DNA from: Saccoglossus kowalevskii
Taxonomy: Eukaryota; Hemichordata; Enteropneusta; Harrimaniidae
DNA length: 24,659 bases
Direction of reading: 5' to 3'
NCBI RefSeq assembly: GCF_000003605.2
Contig: NW_003125391.1
Location: 1-24,659, forward strand
Positions 2,384 through 22,665 of this stretch are shown here, piece by piece (within the stretch, counting starts at the first letter, position 1; the number at the start of each line of letters is the position of its first letter). The notes under the pieces were generated by a model, which worked only from the letters and a program-made list of their open reading frames with translations, did no database searches and was not told the DNA's origin. A program made the translations under genes and the position numbers.

Positions 2384-2556
2384 CTAATTTAGGTCTTCCA
2401 GATTCCACGCTTTCTTTTCACTTACAACATCGCCGGCAGATGACGTCTTGGTAGGTGTTATCTTTTGGCATTTTCTGAAAAGTAGAAAATCTAGTATTTC
2501 GACCAGAGACAGCAGACTAGCTCCCAAAAACAGTCCAAGTGTGCCTCCAATATCAC
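2384..2556 (-). CDS. channel exon 11: pore helix TM2 and short C-tail
   Basis: Residues 636-692 and the TAG stop. DIGGTLGLFLGASLLSLVEI is the hallmark second helix with the G-x-S selectivity filter. A Lys-rich tail of about 30 residues (RKCQKITPTKTSSAG...) follows, ending WNLEDLN. Acceptor TTCATTGCAG. Confidence 0.96.
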
Positions 2557-5500
2557 CTGCAATGAATAAAACCAATTCATGTCAATTATAACATGAAATA
2601 CAAGGAAACTGTGAAAACATTACCAAATGACTTCTTTATGATTATTTGTTATACATCGAAATGCTGGATAAGATCACTTTCGAAAATAAAATATTCCAAT
2701 TTTTGTTTCAAGCATTCTAGATAAGTCTAAGATGTCCAAACGCGGTTTACTGTCCTCAAATGGTCGAAGGACTGGTAATCAGCCAGACTACAAAACAACT
2801 CAACACAGTAGTAAGTCCCAAGAGAGAGTCATGTGGCGATCAAACGTACTTATGTATTCTGAATCGTAACAGGTTATGTGCAGTTGTTTACATGGCGATT
2901 GTTTCTCTCAAATAGCTTGTTTGGTAACGTCCAATACAATATTATTTCAGTTAATATTTGTCCCTTACAAAGCACATTTCATAAAACTCGTTTATAAAAG
3001 TCATATATGTATATTTGCTTAATTGGTAAAATCTCTATCTGATATGTATGCATCTACGTACACGACTGTTTAAATATTGATGTCATTGATCTAGGAACTA
3101 ATTTAGATAATGTATCACAGGTGTTATAATTAAGTGCAAATAACAGTCAGTTTGTTCTCATTCTGCCTCACAAAATCTTGTGCATGCCTAGATCGACTTT
3201 CTCAATGTTTCATAGCAAAAAAATATTGAATCGCCGCATTGTTTGTTTTGATATGACTGTGCTGTTGTTATGCTGTTTTCATACATATTGATAAAGCGAT
3301 GTATATTTAGGATTGTTTTAACGCCTGTTCGTACGAAAACTGATACAATTTTGCGGACGAAGCATTAGGTCCTCTCCTGAGATGATAGTCAACATGCATT
3401 TGGTAGAATTAACTTAAATAATTTATTTGTAGTTTGAATGAGTGTTAACAATACGAATCACTTCAATGAGTACTGCGTTATGTCTTCTATAAAGCATTAT
3501 TGCATAACTTACACACGAGGTTGAATGCTTCATAATCCCTCTGCTGGGTGATTCTCTGTTCTCGCAAGATCCCGTAATAAACATTCAGTTTAACCACATT
3601 TTTCCTGAAAAATTATAATTACATAAAATAATTTTCATTACATTCTCAATAACGTTGTAGGGCATATTTATTCATTTTTCAACTTGATATTTTAGCCATA
3701 TTTAAAATTATAGTAGGAGATGAAATATTGTTTATTATTAGAACGTTATATCGGAACATCGTCAGCTGATTTTATTTTTAAATGTAGAAAATCCGCAAAC
3801 ATGTATGTTCAAAACTGGTCTCTAATTTAACATTTTAATGTTATCGTCCGCATTAACAGCGAACAACTAAGTTTACAATATATATATAAGTCACAACAAT
3901 CAAATACAGAGTTATTGCAATATTTGCCCACAATCTCATTGAATCTAAAACAAGAAAACAACATGATTTGATTGTCCAAAAACAGCTTTAATTTCGAAGC
4001 ACTAAATTCTCACCTCATGTAGTCGTAACATACGCTCTCGATTGGAGAATTAGAATGTATCTCTGGCAGTTTCTCTACGTAAAATTCATAGATTTGACTA
4101 TACATCACTTCAAACATATCAATACCGGATTGCTCGAGAACATCCGTTAGAATGAGCATGACATCATGATAGAATTCGGGCATAATATACCATGGCACAA
4201 GGAAAACGTCCTCCGTAGCTTGTTTAACAGTCCAGTTCAAATAATATCCTATTCTAATAGAATACTGATGCAAGAAAACGACGGAGGTTTTAAAATATAT
4301 GTCACTGCCTACACCGGCGCCAGTATAATTGCGACTTTCCTTATAGATATTATAATACATGGTCCGTCGTAGTGGAGTTACAAATTCATATAAACTAGCA
4401 TGGTAAAGTATTTGGAAAGCTCGATCTAATACGTCAGAAACATTATGGGCTGTAATTTGTAAGTTGGTGTTTATAGCAGAGGGGAATAGTTCCGCGTTGA
4501 ATTGCAAGTCGGAGGTTATGCTAGCAAATGTTTGTGAGAACGATGTGTTTTCCAACGTTGTAAAATTGACATGCATCAGTGGTATATGTAAACGATCTTG
4601 TACACCTGTCGGCACAATAAAGTGGGTTTTCATTCTTTCAATAACTGTATTTTTAGGTATATGTATCCTGGAAAGAAAAAATTACATTTACCCATTATAT
4701 TATTTCGTTTACAACACATATCGTGTTTGTCAAAAATCAGTATAATGTTAACCTGCGATAGATACACCAGTTATAATAATGACATACTTGCGTTGATATT
4801 TTACATCACACATAGATTAAAACACGATTAAACTAATACCTCGTGATTGGGAATAAGTCGTTTAATACAACTTACATTAGGAAACTAGCCATTGCCTTCG
4901 GACATGGGGCTGATGCAGTTGCAGCAAGTCCGTCCGCAAATGGTTTTGAAGGATATTGTCCATAAGAAAGTTGCACATCGTACAGTTCTTGATGACATGT
5001 AGGCTTACAGTGAGAGCACGCTTTGTTCATCTCCGCTGGGGACTCTGTGAAAAACAGTAATAAATTCGCACTATACTAAAAGTAACGTAGATTAGAACAT
5101 AGCAGTCGATGTTTCAGTACATCGCAGATGAGATATTTATTCCTATAATTAGGAAGTGTGAGTCAAGCAATGTTTCTTAGTAACAACATCGCTGGAAATC
5201 ATTGTACAAAAATGTAATTCGATATTTGAATATGTACGTTATATCACATGCCATAATTATATGGCACCCCGATAGCCTACCGCCGTATAGGTACAAATAA
5301 CATATCTTCAGTAATAATCCCATCCATTAAAGTAATGTGCCTTGTTCTAACAACACATATTTGATTATGTGTTCCTTGTATCAAAGGCGACCTCTCCTGA
5401 AGGTTTGGTGAATAATCCACTCATAACTTATGTCACACGCAACGTAATGTTACCGTAATTGGTATAGTACAGGTGTGATGGTTCAAATACCAAAATGGCA

Positions 5501-8500
5501 ACAGTAACAGAAAGACTTCCCTGGCGGCGATGATAAAATACGAACACGGAGCCAACAGATGAGGTTTCAACTGGCACTGGTATTATTATACTCTGCAAAC
5601 ATCAAGTACAATAACGCGGTAAAACTCCAAACCTCCAATAACTAGATACTTAAACTCCAATACAATTCAACGAGATCTCCGATCTGATCTCAGTGCTTAA
5701 CAACTCGATAGTAGATGTATATGACTTTCGAATTATAAATGATTAATCAATATTAAAATTGTCGTGTTTTTTTTTATTGGCGACGAGATAGACAACTTCA
5801 CGAAACCTTATCTTTCAATACTTGTCCCAAAACCTGAATACAAAATCTACCTATAACTTATAAAAATTCATATTCATTTTTTTGTTTTCATGGCAACAAG
5901 ATATGCATCTCCGTCGATATTTATTCTAGTGTTCCGCGTCAACACCTTCTTGAAATTTTATGAAAATCTATTCACACGTGTAAAATTTATAAATCAATAA
6001 TAAAACATTTCCGAAATTACTGTTAGCATAACGATCAGATCATCTTCTCTGCCAAAATATAATCGATTGGTCCGCAATGAAGGCAATGAGGTTGTCAATT
6101 TTTAAAAATTAACTTCTCCTGATAATTTCGTGATAATCAAACTATAATTTGTTGAGTCAAACCTTGTTAGAGACAACAAACCACAAATCAACACACGAAC
6201 ACCCGAGTTAACAATGCAAAAAAGAAAAGAGACACGCTTCGCAGCTGAACTACCCAACAAACTAGTAGTAAAACTAATAAAAAAACTAATAGTAGTAGAA
6301 TGTCACTCACCATTCAGAGGAAGGTAGCAGTTGAACATCTCAGTAGTGTTACATATCATCTCATTTCCTAAGTAAGCAAACAAATGTAAATTTGTCATGC
6401 ATTTGCTGCCTTGACCTTGTTATCGTATTTAGAAAGGATAGAGAGAACGTACTCACCTGGCATTGTGAAATAACGACAATTGCACTCATTAACAGTAAAA
6501 ATGGCTTCACATTCAGAAATACATTTAGACAGTGAGTAGTTTCCTGTGAAATATTTTAGCGCGGATGCCTCTGGCGCTATGCACTGTGTGTGGCCTTCGG
6601 GCTCTGGTAAGTAAGTGACCTAGAGTAAAAAGATCGAATTTAATCGTACGTATAATTTTAGTTTAGACTAGAATTGCTTGCTACTGTGACAAAAAAGTGA
6701 TGATTTGATTAAACCTACCGTTGATTTTTTAAGTTGCGCCGAGGCAATCATCCCCGGGGAAAGATTGAACCCCTCGTCCTTTGGGTTCGGTACGTCGTCC
6801 GCTCCATGGGCAATAACACGAAATCCAACGTGCTCAATTTGTTCATTAGTATACTCTTCTCCCTCAACGTCGAGAATAACAGCCAATCCGTGACGTTCAC
6901 CTGTCAAGAGCAAGCGCGTGCATTCATTTAAAACGATTGTGGATAGTGGTATGCCCGTAAACGAGAACTATGTCTAATGTTAAACATACCACTGTTACTC
7001 TGTTCCAATAGCGGTTCCTCCAGACCTGTGTTGAATGTATAACACACTGTTTCTCCCGCTGATGTCTCAGTAAAATTATGGTGTCCACAAGACCTGCCAC
7101 TCCATTGGCACCTTGATTGTAAAAATAATGATTGACAATTTAATATAAAGGTTATAAAACTCATCTTGTTCATCTTCGGTATTTCACATTTTCAATATTC
7201 AATCAATTGCAGTAGTCGAAAATAACTACTTTATTCAACTAATTTGCCATAATTGTCAGTTAATCACAAAAAGCACACCATTTGAATAGTGGAAATTTGC
7301 CTATTCCAGAAATTGCACGACATCGCGAGAAACGTTTTCGTTCGACTCTTTAGTTATTTCACATAATACAGAATAAAAACAGCTCGAAAACTAAAAATGT
7401 GACCATTAGTTTCCTAGCGTTCAAAACAAGCAGCCTCTCGGCGGAGATAGCTCCGCTGTTTGCAATGGACGTGTCAATTAAAGAACTGACGATAACATTA
7501 GAAAATGAACAAATCCGAGAGAAGTCGATCTGAGGTACCTACATATATAACAAGAATATCCCTTTTTACCAAAAATGACCAAAATAGTAATTACAAATAG
7601 AGAATTGAAGATAGAGGTCTACTAGTAATACATATATGTTTGATGTCAAAGCGATAGGACTTGTGGTTTTCCACAAGAAGTCAAAAATATCACTTTTTAC
7701 CAAAAATGACAAAAATATTTATCAAAATCAGAGTATTAAAGACATCATCACGAAATGAACAAATCTAAGAGATGTATGCCAAAGATACATATACACCAAG
7801 AATAAAAGCAATAAGAATTGTAGTTTTCAAGAAGAAGTCAAAAAAGTAAAATGTTGACACGGACGACGGACGCCGGCGGACAATCACTCAATATTATATG
7901 TTCCGCTCGACAAAGTCGTCAGCGGAGCAAACAAAATTATCCTCTTATATTAAACATTTGTTCGTACTTTGATGGAACCTGTTACTTGTTTCTTCAAACT
8001 TGCAAATGTCATAACATTGATGTGCATAAGACAGAAACAGAACCTACCTACAAATAATTATATGTTTTCATAAATCATTATTTCAAAATATACACTTTTG
8101 TTTAATAATTTAAATAATACTCCGACAAACATGAGAACGGTATATCCTTCTCTTAGTATATAAATAAGAAAACAAAACATCATACATAAGTATGAGACAT
8201 CGTTAAACGCTAGCTTGATCTACAGATCTTTTTATTAGGTGTAATATAAGTCATTATAATATTGTTAATGACATAGTTCTGTCCAGTTTTTAATTACTGT
8301 GTCAATTAAAAACAATTACAGATGTAGATTATAATTAAATGGTGTAGGAATATTCAGCATGTTACCACACAGTAAGGATTTTTCTTGAACAAAATCTAAG
8401 TATGAAAACAAAATATGGTCACCAGTCAGCATTTTGAATTAAATTACAATGCAGACGTGCATCAAAACCACCATCTATAATATTCAAAAGCAAGTTTGAA

Positions 8501-11066
8501 TAAAGTCCACAATGCCACAAGTGGAATAGCAATTGTAAACTGGAATTACAAAGAAAAAAAGAACGGGTAAATGAAATTATGAATACATTTTAAACTTTAA
8601 AGTGCAATTTAAAATCTAAAGAAATAAAAATGACAATTAAAATTTTCAAAGAAATGTAGAATTTTAATTATGAATCCATTAAAAATAGATAAAGTAGCAA
8701 GAATGAAAACACGAAAACGTGGTCCTTCTCGGCTGTCGTCACGGTACTCCATAGTCTAAGCAACACACTGAAACTTTCAGGCCATCCGTTTTAGTGGGAA
8801 ACTATGACCAGTAACACCACGGTCCGTCCCTCATTAATGCGAGACATCACTAGCTGCAAGGGGGTCGCTGATTAGCTGTTCGCGCTGCCAGTGTATAAGG
8901 AAATTAAGCATTCAAATATATATTTAACTTGAATCAAAGAGTTCAAACGAGTTCCTTATTGGGTTAGGTTGTATAATCATAGACAATGCTATAATATACG
9001 TGTTGTATAGCTGTATTGTGCATTTTAGTCACGTTCTCTGAGTCTCAGAAGAGTTTGCTTATAAAGGTTTTTTCAAGGTTGGCGATCTCTTACATGCACT
9101 GTTCTACATAATACAGATAACCAGATATATATGTAAATTAATGCATCATTCCCACCTTAATTATGTTATTATTCATAAACACGTACGAATATCACAGTTA
9201 CTGAAATTAAAAAAAAAAACGAATGGCAACGCAACGGTTTCGAATTATTATTGTTCTTTGGTTAGGACCAATGCATGCCTACAAATCGAGCTTTTGGCCA
9301 CATTACTACTTCGCGTTCTTGGTGGTTAGGTATACATGTCAAGAGTATACGTACCCTAAAATCATATCATCTTTCTGATGTCCAATCTCTTTTAAAAATG
9401 TCAGCATATCGTAGCCCGGAGGTAGAGCAATATCGCTCAAATTAACCCCTACTGGCAGTTGTGTAGTCGTAGGAGAGAGTATCGCTTTTGCTACTTCAAT
9501 CACAGTCTCTTCATCAGCGTATCCAAAAAAATCAAGTGTGCCCGTTTTCCTGGAAGGATTTTCAAGAGGAGACGTGTTAATTATGAATAAATTGCAGTGA
9601 TGCTAATGACTGTAGTATGTAACACGTGACTCGGTTCCATGCATGTAAACAAAAATAGCCAACACCTGGAAGGTGATTCAAATAGTATGACAGTTCGTTT
9701 TTTCTACCTATAAATACATGTATATGTATCATTAGTATACATACCTGGCAACATTGTTATTACAAATGGTTATAGAGGGTAACTTTAAAGTATCTACGGG
9801 TAGGTCCACAAAGTTGACACTGATCGGGCGTTCAGAATACGTTGTGACTATTTTGTACACCTGGAATAGCAACCCGCCTAACGCACAGCAAACAATTATG
9901 CCCCAGAAAATTCTGTGGATTATGAAGATGCAAGAAAAGTCAGAATCTGAACAATATAATATATTTATACAATAATCATTTTTAATAAGTGGTCATGTTC
10001 CACATATATTAAACGTAGTAATTTACTGTGAGCACATTTACCTCTTGCCTTAATTTTTGAAGCCCTTTACGAAGCGGCGTGGGCTAAATTACGAAGGTGT
10101 GGCTATTCAAGTTTGCAGAATTACTCCGTTAGAGTATGGAAACTCGGTTGCGAACGGTAGTCAACGGGGTTTTGGTTCTTACGGGCCTCGGACTTCAACC
10201 TCAATCCCTAAAAAGGCCGTTATTTCTTTAGCAGTCGCTTTAGTTTTCGCGATCACGCTGAAAGAACTAAAACAACAATTATTTCTTTTTGTAAAACAAA
10301 AAAAGAAGTCCCGACTTTGCCAGTCTAGAGTTTGTTCACAGTGGACTTTTAATTTTGACCATGGTTCAAGTAATCATTATAATTTCGCATACAATCAGCA
10401 CTATTATACTCGTAGTAAATATCCGTAAAATGGACAGGTTTTCGATTTCGTAACAGTGAACTATGCATGTTTACTTGATCTATAATCAGAGATGTTGCTT
10501 GTATCCCGATACGATGTAATCGCCATTTTTCTAGCTCTATTATAATATCAGGATGGGGTTTTAATAAAATATAGAATTTTTTTGTGAACCGCAAACTCCT
10601 TCAAAAATAATAATGTTGTATCTAATCTTTTTTTTTCTTGATATTACAGACATTTCAGGCATGCCCGTATTGCAATATTCTTTATAAAAACAAAGCGATT
10701 CGAAAGAGGATAAGCACACAACAAGGAAAGTATATTCTGTGTGAAATACTTCGTATATTGATTTTTAAAACTGAAATGTATATGCAAGTGTCATGATAAA
10801 TAATGTTAACATTGTAAGTAAAATTTATATGTCAGCTATGATTCATAGCTGTACCTATACAAATATAACTATCCAATATAACAACGCGTCAATAAGTAGA
10901 CACAAATTTATATATAATCGACGAGCACGTAATCGAGTAAAAAAAGCTAAATCACAATTTACCTTCTAAATCTAATCAAAGACGGGTCCGTCACATACTT
11001 TAAGCCTCCAATACTGGTCTCTTTGCCGAAATTCCAGAAAATACCAGAAGACGTCTGTTTTGTCAT
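2384..11066 (-). CDS. DEG/ENaC family sodium channel (ASIC/FaNaC-like), 11 coding exons
   Basis: Subunit of an amiloride-sensitive-type cation channel: two membrane helices, a large cysteine-rich extracellular domain, and a trimeric pore at the cell surface. The joined exons give 2079 nt, or 692 residues plus stop. TM1 is at about residues 36-60 (IFWGIIVCCALGG). The finger/palm follows, with CYTFNTG, the Cys-rich stretch CISECEAIF...CNCRYFTMPG, and CKPTCHQELYDV...YPSK. TM2 is at about 637-662 with DIGGTLGLFLGAS; the GAS selectivity motif is at 647-649. The start is the first Met after an in-frame TGA at 11163-11165; a spliced upstream N-terminus is not excluded. All ten introns are GT/AG and all phases agree. 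Ligand (protons, peptides or other) cannot be told from sequence. The 218-residue exon 9 is an unusual insertion. The family is certain; the orthology is not. Confidence 0.95.
3513..3604 (-). CDS. channel exon 10: palm strand before TM2
   Basis: Residues 605-636, encoding KNVVKLNVYYGILREQRITQ and then QRDYEAFNLVC. It matches the family's eN.l.l.i.ye.l....i.q...Y....ll segment just outside the pore. Acceptor TTTTTCAG, donor GTAAGT. The last residue, Cys636, occupies the position usually held by the Gly before D-I-G-G. Confidence 0.94.
4014..4667 (-). CDS. channel exon 9: 654-nt symmetric insert exon
   Basis: Residues 387-605. It starts IHIPKNTVIERMKTHF and ends SPIESVCYDYMR. In ASIC and FaNaC relatives only about 20 residues separate the PSK motif (exon 8) from the strand that leads to TM2 (exon 10), so nearly all of this exon is additional. 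The reading frame is open throughout (217 whole codons). It has five N-glycosylation sequons (NFT, NTS, NVS, NYT, NWT), as expected for extracellular protein, and a single Cys near its end. Acceptor CTTTCCAG, donor GTGAGA; both flanking introns are phase 2. I recognise no domain. Open frames on the opposite strand are shadows. Confidence 0.88.
4876..5044 (-). CDS. channel exon 8: end of the cysteine-rich region, PSK motif
   Basis: Residues 331-387. It encodes SPAEMNKACSHCKPTCHQEL and then SYGQYPSKPFADG, equivalent to the family's C.C..pC....Y......PS. segment. It ends with AT, two bases of a codon that both exon 9 and exon 10 can complete as ATG. Acceptor TTTTTCACAG, donor GTAAGT. Confidence 0.93.
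6311..6367 (-). CDS. channel exon 7: 57-nt mini-exon
   Basis: Residues 312-331, giving NEMICNTTEMFNCYLPLN with two further cysteines. It is a symmetric phase 1-1 exon of 57 nt, so skipping would remove 19 residues without a frameshift but would lose a conserved disulfide pair. Acceptor GCTTACTTAG, donor GTGAGT. Confidence 0.9.
6457..6619 (-). CDS. channel exon 6: cysteine-rich thumb entry
   Basis: Residues 258-312. YLPEPEGHTQC is followed by YSLSKCISECEAIFTVNECN and CRYFTMP, the classic Y....C..eC....v...C.C....MP signature whose cysteines form the thumb disulfides. Acceptor TTTTTACTCTAG, donor GTGAGT. Confidence 0.95.
6719..6900 (-). CDS. channel exon 5: beta-ball/palm segment
   Basis: Residues 197-257. 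GERHGLAVILDVEGEEY matches the family's G..GL.l.ld....EY strand. VGFRVIAHGADDVPNPKDEG and FNLSPGMIASAQL match the following G..v..h....P....G..l.PG region. Acceptor CTCTTGACAG, donor GTAGGT. Confidence 0.93.
6990..7111 (-). CDS. channel exon 4: finger domain, CYTFN motif
   Basis: Residues 156-197. It encodes CQWSGRSCGHHNFTETSAGE and then VCYTFNTG, the best conserved extracellular motif of the family. An N-glycosylation sequon (NFT) is present. Acceptor ACAATCAAG, donor GTATGT. The phases join exons 3 and 5 without a frame change. Confidence 0.93.
7437..7935. repeat. degraded dispersed repeat inside channel intron 3
   Basis: Intron 3 (7112-9354) is the longest in the gene. This part contains internally repeated text: tttttaccaaaaatgac at about 7563 and 7697, a tgaacaaatc segment at about 7506 and 7757, and an 'aaagcrataggacttgtggttttcaagaagtc'-like segment at about 7648 and 7806. 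It then runs into a CG-rich stretch with repeated GGACG words (7859-7881). The motif gctccgctg appears at 7449 and, inverted, near 7921, hinting at terminal inverted repeats. Such sequences are familiar as high-copy elements in bivalve genomes; this is recall, not a search. The rest of the intron holds nothing I can name, apart from a GC-richer patch at 8715-8895. Confidence 0.5.
9355..9549 (-). CDS. channel exon 3: finger domain
   Basis: Residues 91-156, acceptor TTCCAG and donor GTACGT. It ends in a segment typical of peptide-gated/degenerin members (PPGYDMLTFL...HQKDDMIL), which leads directly into the Cys-Gln-Trp of exon 4. Confidence 0.92.
9745..9912 (-). CDS. channel exon 2: first membrane helix and start of the palm
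   Basis: Residues 35-91. The acceptor ATCCACAG precedes A, which completes Arg35. TM1 reads IFWGIIVCCALGGLLFQVYK. It is followed by the family's post-TM1 segment, including LPSITICNNN (the P-S-I-T-I-C-N motif). The exon ends AG before GTATGT. Confidence 0.93.
10963..11066 (-). CDS. channel exon 1: cytoplasmic N-terminus
   Basis: Residues 1-34 plus two bases of codon 35 (AG), ending at donor GTAAAT. It begins MTKQTSSGIFWNFGKETSIG. The SIGG stretch sits where the family has its His-Gly gating motif: the Gly is kept and the His is replaced by Gly. The only Met in the open stretch after the upstream TGA was chosen as start. Confidence 0.85.
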
Positions 11067-15861: not shown

Positions 15862-15941
15862 CTGTAATATGCTAGAATTTTTTCAGTTGCAAATATCGCC
15901 TATACAATGTAAGAATCCTAAGATGTAAAACATTTTCTCAC

Positions 15942-16009
15942 CTCCCTAGCAGCTCGACCACCAGCTTGTATCGCACCGTCCATGTAACGAGGCCATACCG
16001 TTACAGTTT
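15942..16009 (-). pseudogene. amine oxidase relic, exon with the C-terminal FAD-binding motif
   Basis: 68 nt, donor GTGAGA. With the acceptor GCTGGAACAG it encodes TVTVWPRYMDGAIQAGGRAA then RE, the family's TET...W.GYm.GA..aG.rAA.E FAD-binding element. The bases before it still read A-G-T-E-T in frame, so either the exon began further upstream or the previous exon's end has been duplicated in the acceptor. The preceding exon (family V-L-R-.-P-V-.-.-I-.-F-A-G-T) was not found in 16010-16849. Confidence 0.82.
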
Positions 16010-16849
16010 CTGTTCCAGCATTCAAGATGAACGAAGATTTAATATAATGTACCAGTTATAAGTTAAACAATTGCATTAGTTTATTGGAACCCTTCACTTT
16101 CTTATTGGTTACAATGAATTACATTAAGAAAAAATCATTACAGAAAATACTGGCTCATAATCTTGAAATAATGTCGGTTAGAGGTAAAAACATGAAAAAA
16201 TAATCCAGCTACATTGACAAGTTGTATTAATAGTTCAGAATATTTGTTGTACATATTGTATTGCAGTATTTTATTGTTATTTATCAGTATAAATATTTTG
16301 TAAAATCACTTATTGATTGTTCTTCTCTGAATGCTGTAAAAAGAGCATGTCGTGTCAAAATCGTGTTAATTTTTGAGGGTAAAGACTAAAAATTCTTTTT
16401 TTTTCTACTTGTAATTTTGGTTTAATGTATGCCTCCGTGTTTCGATTTTCATGTTCACATTACTCAAACAGAACCGAAAAAACGGCTTGCCGTATCAATC
16501 AGCATCAGCATTTTTCAGCATTATTAGATGATTTTTGTTATTAATTTTACGGTTATAAATGATATTGCTTGGGACGGAGCAATAAATTCCAGGTGTGAAA
16601 AAAGTGATCCGAAAGAAAGTGAAAGTGGCTTCAATTCAAAGATTGTTTGAAAATAGTTCATATATAGTGAGGAAGTGCGTGCCTGGCAGATTTAGTGTAT
16701 CGTATAATTTACAAGTCTGCAACCATGTATAATTATTGGTTGTGTCAACATTGTCTTTTTAACACGGTTCATGAACGTGTAATTTATACTACGTGTTATT
16801 ATTTATGGCGTTGTACAAATAGTACACTCCCAATTTGATATCAACTCAC

Positions 16850-19089: not shown

Positions 19090-19366
19090 TATTATTTTGT
19101 AGCGTTATCAATACCGAATCAATGGATATGCTGCCACTAAATAGCGAAAGATTTGTGGGGGAAATCACAGTAAAAAATACACAGTTTTAAAATCACTGGC
19201 TGAATCTGAATACTTTAAAATGTCTTTCTGAAAAAGATTTCCATGACAAACTAATAAAGAAACTAGTTTCAATCCATCAAATTATTGTGATATCATTCAT
19301 CCATGTAAAAACTGTTTAAACTAGTCTTTAATACATTTTAATCATGTTATAATCTAGCGCATATAT

Positions 19367-19893
19367 GTCACAGTACATTAATATCACATTCAAAAGTATC
19401 AAAGATTCATTTGTTTCATTGGAAAATAATGATATGAATGGTTATATTATTGTCTTACAATACATGAATATCACATTCAAAAGTATCAAAGATTCATTTG
19501 TTTCATTGGAAAATAATTATATGAATGGTTATATTATTGTCTTACAATACATGAATATCACATTCAAAAGTATCAAAGATTCATTTGTTTCATTGGAAAA
19601 TAATTATATGAATGGTTATAATATTGTCTTACAATACATGAACATCACATTCAAACGTATCAAAGATTCATTTGTTTCATTGGAAAATAATTATATGAAT
19701 GGTTATATTATTGTCTTACTATACTTGAACATCACATTCAAAAGTATCAAAGATTCATTTGTTTCATTGGAAAATAATTATATGAATGGTTATATTATTG
19801 TCTTACAATACATGAATATCACATTCAAAAGTATCAAAGATTCATTTGTTTCATTGGAAAATAATTATATGAATGGTTATATTATTGTCTCAC
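19367..19893. repeat. 87-bp tandem repeat, six copies
   Basis: Six near-identical copies with an exact 87-bp period: atatcacattc or acatcacattc recurs at 19381, 19468, 19555, 19642, 19729 and 19816. The unit is a multiple of three and lacks stops on the plus strand, so it reads as a 29-residue repeat (MNITFKSIKDSFVSLENNYM...). I take that as incidental. High identity suggests recent expansion. On the minus strand each unit begins GTAAGAC (GTGAGAC in the copy next to the exon). Confidence 0.95.
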
Positions 19894-19956
19894 CGACTCC
19901 AATCATCATAGCTAATTTCTCGCTTATCTGCTGTGCCCGCAAACTATTAGCTGTTC
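19894..19956 (-). pseudogene. amine oxidase relic, exon with QQISEKLA
   Basis: 63 nt, acceptor TTCGTCTTCAG, donor GTGAGA. It encodes TANSLRAQQISEKLAMMIGV plus G, equivalent to the family's GG.QQ.SE..A..lG. The last base joins AA of the next exon to give Glu-Asn-Val-Val. Its donor abuts the 87-bp tandem array. Confidence 0.8.
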
Positions 19957-21128
19957 CTGAAGACGAAATACAAAGCTAATAATATCATAAGTACAATAAT
20001 ATTATGGCTAAATATTATTATTGGTAACTCTATTCTAGGTATATATATAATAATCATTTGATTTTATCACTTCCGATTAGAATTCTAAATTCAAACAAAG
20101 ACAAAATATTCACCAATCAAATGTTAATACAGAAACATAACAATATAAGTAAAGTTGGATTTCATTGATAATATTCCTACCAGCCCACCGCCTTCAACGG
20201 AATATATTTTACCTTCAAAAAAATACTTGTGTTATTTCGAGTTTTATCAAATCAGTAACAACGTAGACGACGTATTGTAATACGATAAATATGGCACACC
20301 AACATGGAAAGTTACCTCCTGTACAACGAATATACCAGAGGAAATACAAAAATGACAGCTCTCATGACTCTGCAGCAAAATTGTGTCTCACAAAAATATC
20401 AGCAAACACTCATTCGGGAACCAATTAAACAAATATGTTCTAGGTTCTCTACATTGCGAAGGTTATATTAAGCTTTTAATTCTCAAATACCTGCTTAATG
20501 AGATAAACAATTTTTACCAAATGAGCCAAGATATATTTCCCAGTACATCAAGGCCAAATGAAATTGAATTGAATCATTTGTCTAACATATTAATATTTGG
20601 CATTGCAAGTCACAAATTTCCTTTGAGATAGCAAAACAACATTTAGTCATTCGTGGTTGTGTCGTTTTGAACTTGGAAAGTCCTGTGGGTACCCTAATCG
20701 ATGTTCGCACACATATCGAGGGTGTGTTGAGGAAAGATGTGATTCAACGATAACATGTTGCGTCTCTAATCATAGTCGATTTAGTGATAATTAACAATGG
20801 TTGAGACAAAAAGCGGTCGACTACAGGCATATAAAATATAATACGTATATCCAACTTCCATGGTCGATAACCATAGCCAAGTCTCTTTTTAGCAAGATGC
20901 AGTCAACTATGTTCCCGTAGATAGGAAATATTGTGGTATTTAATTAGATTGCGTTATTTTTGGCCCGTGTAACTGCGGTAATGACGTCAACAGATCACGT
21001 GATTGCTGTCGTTTCACAATGTTCATGTTACATTTTAAGTCCAATTGAGATGGGATATGATGATTACTGATGCATTTGCAGATGTAAAACTAAATAAGAA
21101 CATTTGTCAAAGGTTTGTGAATACATAC
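19957..21128. other. region upstream of the amine oxidase relic, no gene supported
   Basis: AT-rich sequence. The frame at 20383-20631 (plus) has no recognisable motif. On the minus strand, 20181-20210 reads KIYSVEGGGL, which may be a decayed amine oxidase exon (family V-E-G-G-A-Q), but its splice phase does not fit. A CRE octamer and an E-box palindrome lie at 20982-21003. Confidence 0.45.
20982..21003. promoter_or_regulatory. CRE octamer beside E-box palindrome
   Basis: TGACGTCA (20982-20989, CREB/ATF consensus) is followed four bases later by ATCACGTGAT (20994-21003), a palindrome containing the CACGTG E-box. Both are perfect consensus sites for animal bZIP and bHLH factors. Function is inference from motif alone. 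Confidence 0.3.
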
Positions 21129-21944: not shown

Positions 21945-22665
21945 ATGTTGCTATGTCTCCAATTTTTGAAAGATGTAATCCCAAAGAATAACACAGGAAA
22001 ATTCAGTGAACATCTTTCAAAGAAAAGCAAGGTAGTGCAGCTGCCAGTGTTGGTAAACTGCAACGAACAGAATTATAATGATGTTGTCAAAATCTTGGAT
22101 TATTATGAAGAGATGTTGCATAATATTTACCAGCAAACTAAGGTAACCTTTGATGACAGTACTAAAGTTCATATTGGTGGTGATCAACTTACCAGGGATT
22201 GATTTTCTGGTGCTAAATGTTTGCGGATAAGAGGTGCTACACCCAGTGAGAGATTTGGCCATCTCAGCCCCATCACCTTTGAATTTTTTCATATGCAGAT
22301 GAAATTTCTGTCATTATTCTATAAGCGTCTCTACAACGAAGAAAGCATTCAGGAAATGGGAACTATGCGATCAGAACAGCAGCGTATAATGCGGCGGAGG
22401 GTAAAAGCTGATGTTAAAAATGCATATGATACTGATGCAGATTTTGCCATTTCTTTCATTGATACCTATATTATCGAGGCACTATTTGAGTTCTTTGGAA
22501 TGGAAGATGTGAATGGTATCCCAACAAAGAATATGCCTCCACCAAATCTTGGTTCTATTGATGATCGTCGTGAGTGGATGAATACAACCTTTATCAAAAT
22601 CATTGATGAGTTTGTATGGCCTAAAGCAGATGTAAATACACAAAACCATTAAGAAACTGTTGAAG
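21945..22665 (+). pseudogene. DUF6589-like protein, broken by in-frame stops
   Basis: A single frame carries the conserved run VVKILDYYEEML, KVHIGGDQLTRD, FSGAK, GATPSERFGHLSPITFEFFH, MQMKFLSLFYKRLY, DADFAISFIDTYIIEALFEF FG, and IIDEFVWPKAD. I recall this pattern from the large multi-copy family named DUF6589 in invertebrates and fungi, suspected to be transposon-associated; its biochemical role is not known to me. It is interrupted by TGA at 22200-22202, in GGDQLTRD-stop-FSGAK, where relatives have Arg, so a CGA-to-TGA change fits. A second stop, TAA at 22650-22652, precedes a donor-like GTAAGT at 22666. The true 5' end is unknown; the first Met at 21945 is arbitrary. Confidence 0.7.

Follow-up and report, generated by a model that had tools for sequence, protein, structure and literature searches.

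A separate exon probably encodes an extra knuckle domain in a DEG/ENaC channel subfamily of Saccoglossus kowalevskii

The outer ectodomain of DEG/ENaC channels senses protons, peptides and force, and the selectivity-filter motif of these channels in TM2 is G-x-S. In the available part of one study, the knuckle is described as sitting atop the palm (PMC12658276). The available part of another, which names a GIS motif, describes the outer ectodomain of FaNaC as strongly divergent, with the finger being the divergent part; in FaNaC1, the FMRFamide pocket abuts knuckle helix alpha6 of the neighbouring subunit, next to the finger (PMC11026163).

We have analysed a stretch of 24,659 nt from Saccoglossus kowalevskii (contig NW_003125391.1, hereafter the window), which holds an intact DEG/ENaC gene with exon 9 open. 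The features of this gene used below are as follows.

2384..11066, minus strand: DEG/ENaC channel gene, 11 coding exons, 692 aa with exon 9 (gene model)
11066-10963, minus strand: exon 1, N-terminal SIGGLKYV segment (ASIC2 alignment)
4876..5044, minus strand: exon 8, end of the thumb, palm strand and first knuckle segment (YPSK...), with the extra Cys378 (APC)
4668..4875, minus strand: intron 8-9, 208 nt, phase 2 (gene model)
4014..4667, minus strand: exon 9, the module exon, residues 388-604, phase 2/2, 654 nt
3605..4013, minus strand: intron 9-10, 409 nt, phase 2 (gene model)
3513..3604, minus strand: exon 10, palm strand before TM2 (KNVVKLNVYYGIL)
2384..2556, minus strand: exon 11, TM2 with the GAS filter, and the C-terminus

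All 10 introns of the rebuilt gene are GT-AG, with consistent phases. In the profile search, the Pfam ASC family (PF00858) covers the 474-aa form, that is, the protein without exon 9, over the whole profile (1-455 of 455, E 1.6e-88), with a score of 298.2 bits against a curated cut-off of 23.6. The TM2 filter is GAS, within LFLGASLLSL. By sequence search of the PDB, which returns 33 distinct sequences at E <= 0.001, the best solved relatives of this form are ASIC2 and ASIC1, and the FaNaC and ENaC chains rank lower. The family is large in the source genome, where PF00858 has at least 93 matches (572-Mb assembly).

Several other features have been observed in the window. Its left end (4-479) is a 21-bp tandem repeat of about 23 copies, and an 87-bp repeat, whose unit is divisible by 3, occupies 19370-19890 in six copies with 97% matches; a plus-strand frame at 19353-19976 stays open for 208 codons across it. 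A short minus-strand frame at 15921-16055 resembles the C-terminal end of a flavin amine oxidase (Pfam Amino_oxidase, E 0.0024, below the cut-off) and is possibly part of the next gene upstream, and an open plus-strand frame at 22203-22649 has a sub-cut-off match to DUF6589 (E 9.6e-6). Rfam, at gathering thresholds, gives no match within the window.

The initial annotation of this DNA had described exon 9 as a 654-nt symmetric exon, and its account of the exon holds in our gene model. On the minus strand the exon runs from 4667 to 4014 (AG|G...AG|GT) with phase 2 at either end. Exon 8 ends in AT and exon 10 opens with G at 3604, so the frame survives skipping; the protein has 692 aa with exon 9 and 474 aa without it, and the skipped junction would read ...KAMASFLM-KNVVKLNVYYGIL. 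The module has five sequons and one cysteine (Cys600), as stated there. Its location has to be revised, however: the initial annotation had placed it at the thumb/palm junction, whereas the ASIC2 alignment puts the insertion between a segment that we take to be knuckle (PSK...YIS) and a strand that we assign to the palm (ENILVLDIFF), all knuckle, palm and thumb names here being our assignments to the ASIC2-aligned segments. By this alignment, the module would be a knuckle insertion at the top of the ectodomain.

For paralogues in the same genome, we have read the DNA that separates the knuckle exon from the palm-strand exon after it. Seven genes are resolved at this site, three with the module, the window gene included, and four without. 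Six further genes were looked at and left uncounted: in C603, C3821, C3229, C1144 and C3976 the motif scan did not find exon 8 in the pieces scanned, and in C648 exon 8 is cut off. The two module exons outside the window are as follows.

L061:2533-3069: module exon of the C2443 gene, 537 nt, 178 aa, phase 2/2, with exon 10 in L067
L066, ending at 693: module exon of C4124 gene 2, at least 155 aa (5' part unseen), 3' phase 2, followed by exon 10

In the C2443 gene, the counterpart of exon 8 leaves 2 bases and is followed by an open module exon and then by exon 10. For C4124 gene 2, exon 8 and the 5' end of the module are unseen, while in C4124 gene 1 exon 8 is of the module-group type and the DNA beyond it is unseen. 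All four module-less genes (C1426, two of C3473, at 44 kb and at 71 kb, and C2924) have one phase-2 intron exactly at the site. These introns are about 106 to 894 nt long, and none of the four has a stop-free run of more than 70 codons on the gene strand. After splicing, three of the four show Y-x-R or Y-x-S before the palm strand and the fourth S-V-K. The C3473 contig (L002-L006, L072, L073) has five DEG/ENaC matches in total, each spanning TM1 and the finger as a single run of about 180-197 codons and one of them with internal stops; the 3' ends of two of its genes have been read, and both are without the knuckle module.

The three module genes also resemble each other outside the module. 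In exons 10 and 11 together they share 31-38 of 55 residues, while the window gene shares 16-23 of 55 with five other genes and ASIC2, and 11 of 30 with C1426. In a comparison of ten pieces, the module genes come out as mutually closest. Against this grouping, the tree split that unites them has only 68% support over 55 columns, and C2443 and C4124 also share 24 and 26 of 55 residues with ASIC2. Overall, the module exon looks like a subfamily feature within the source genome. The suggestion that the exon was gained inside an old intron is supported, in that all four module-less paralogues keep one phase-2 intron there, but the accompanying idea of an optional cassette peculiar to the window gene is not supported: two more genes have a module exon, nothing is unusual about the splice sites, and the sole apparent partner for the extra exon 8 Cys lies in exon 9.

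Based on these comparisons, we favour, with a probability of roughly 0.78, the reading that exon 9 is normally included and would encode a knuckle domain of a DEG/ENaC subfamily, gained once before the duplications and evolving fast since then.

At the sequence level the module is isolated. As in the initial annotation, which recognised no homologue, sequence searches of Pfam, NCBIfam and the PDB match it to no known family. The window module alone finds nothing in the PDB at E <= 10, and in its own genome only itself, the next hit having E 9.2. The candidates that came up were rejected. DHR-2 lobe A (E 0.017, under its own cut-off) and DpdE (E 0.13) each match one of the three modules only, and the PDB entry 3sd2 is weak (E 0.33, with a three-row module profile). 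A match in C2185 (E 0.012) adjoins, by eye, an open frame resembling an RNA-recognition motif; it has internal stops, and no channel exon was recognised there.

Between the modules, BLASTP in single comparisons gives E 0.08 for window-C2443 and E 0.002 for C2443-C4124, and whole-module shuffles give z values of 3.2 (window-C2443), 1.6 (window-C4124) and 3.9 (C2443-C4124). If the last 20 residues are taken off, the z values are 1.4, 0.8 and 1.1, respectively, and 83, 219 and 134 of 1000 shuffles score as high, that is, the module bodies show no significant likeness. Since this is so, the three modules are grouped by their site and by the relationship of the genes. The dissimilarity of the bodies would fit an alternative in which a single permissive intron took up an unrelated module separately in each of the three genes. 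We consider this unlikely, as the three modules share their phases, are of similar size, have a common tail and carry a Cys at -4 from the module end in 3/3 cases, and as they sit in the genes that are mutually closest in exons 10 and 11. With the tail included, moreover, none of 1000 shuffles attains the score of L061-L066 and 4 attain that of window-L061, although window-L066 is reached by 60 of 1000 and is not significant. A common origin of the module bodies, judged from site, phase, size, tail and Cys, is likely.

The cysteines bear on how exon 9 is used. We have assumed that the 14-Cys disulfide scheme of ASIC applies to the ectodomain of the window channel, which without the module has counterparts of all 14. 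Beyond these there are Cys378 at the end of exon 8, Cys600 in the module, trailed by four module residues, and Cys636 at the start of TM2. The extra exon 8 Cys is present in 3/3 group genes with exon 8 visible (window, C2443 and C4124 gene 1) and absent from the four module-less genes (0/4), and both extra Cys are observed together in two genes, window and C2443. The L066 module carries a second Cys, so a single Cys pair is not general. This distribution suggests that Cys378 and Cys600 may form a disulfide closing the base of the module, and such a base-closing pair argues for constitutive use of exon 9. The module would probably be a sugar-decorated domain, as predicted from its five sequons; the two other modules have 2 and 4.

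The two channel forms proposed by the initial annotation should be weighed against this. According to this proposal, exon 9 would be a regulated cassette, and the gene would yield channels of 692 aa and 474 aa that differ in gating. The exon is indeed symmetric, the skipped form is still a full-length ASC match, and the module-less paralogues show that a channel can be built without the module. Symmetry, however, is uninformative on skipping, because a frame-keeping exon inserted into a phase-2 intron must be symmetric. Nor are the splice sites of exon 9 weak: the donors of exons 8 and 9 agree with the consensus at 8/9 and 7/9 positions (range in the gene 6-9), and the acceptor of exon 9 has a pyrimidine content of 0.80, joint best in the gene. 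Skipping would also strand Cys378 without an apparent partner and would leave F-L-M at the junction, in contrast to the Y-x-R or Y-x-S of three of the four module-less genes. We thus regard a regulated cassette as rather improbable; exon 9 is most likely constitutive, and the two-isoform idea is not favoured.

Exon 9 itself is real, and it most likely adds a genuine extra domain to the channel. The stop-free run through it is 223 codons, a length reached in 0 of 300 Markov-1 simulations of window-length sequence (simulated maximum 192). Its codon-usage score of 0.003 is just under the 95% level of intron pieces (0.018). With codon usage not clearly in favour, what speaks for the exon is its open frame, its splice sites and the presence of module exons in the other genes. 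A chance open frame or untranslated relic, to which a codon score not clearly over intron pieces and the absence of a homologue in sequence searches might point, is very improbable considering the simulations, the clean in-phase splice sites on both sides and the two other genes that hold module exons at the same place.

Coming back to the preferred reading of a normally included knuckle domain, we can propose how it might have come about. An old phase-2 intron would have acquired a phase 2/2 exon, and duplications would then have yielded the at least three module genes in this genome; that is, a single gain would have been followed by divergence, which seems to have been fast in the module after the duplications. 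In the protein, with exon 9 included as normal, the putative Cys378-Cys600 disulfide would lie at the module base, and the module would form a glycosylated cap atop the trimer, beside the pocket that forms where the finger of one subunit meets the knuckle of its neighbour. Such a cap might modulate ligand access or gating, or serve as an extracellular tether for the channel. More tentatively, and with less than even odds, these genes may represent a DEG/ENaC subfamily with a disulfide-closed, glycosylated knuckle cap whose fast evolution has erased recognisable likeness between paralogues while the pore is conserved, as might be expected of a diversifying recognition or gating domain on an ancient channel scaffold.

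With at least three genes carrying it, the module belongs to a subfamily and is not a single oddity. A knuckle domain of about 200 residues that is encoded by a separate exon, brings an extra Cys pair and diverges very fast would offer a clean natural experiment on the control of gating and ligand specificity by the top of the trimer. Among the literature matches listed, a set outside which subscription papers mostly fall, no title or abstract opening describes a DEG/ENaC channel of an invertebrate with a large knuckle domain.

Compared with the solved channels, the core is closest to ASIC. ASIC2 (6l6p) and ASIC1 (9e4a) align with the 474-aa form almost end to end, with E 1.9e-54 and 6.4e-47, respectively; unlike the window channel, they have no module and a short knuckle. 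The N-terminal His-Gly of ASIC (STLHGIRHI) is Gly-Gly in the window channel (SIGGLKYV, exon 1), and since Gly replaces His in this motif, the window channel is not filed as an ASIC. The FaNaC structures match the same form at E 5.2e-28 (7yvb, best stretch 4-312) and E 7.2e-16 (8on7, best stretch 387-449). The ligand pocket of FaNaC is bordered by the knuckle, and the available part of PMC11026163 describes no knuckle module. Known DEG/ENaC channels with extra knuckle residues, as far as the accessible portions of the sources describe them, carry these as loops between two knuckle helices. The window channel, which we liken to them by description, instead has a 217-residue module, with its own exon and Cys, at the end of the knuckle before the palm strand.
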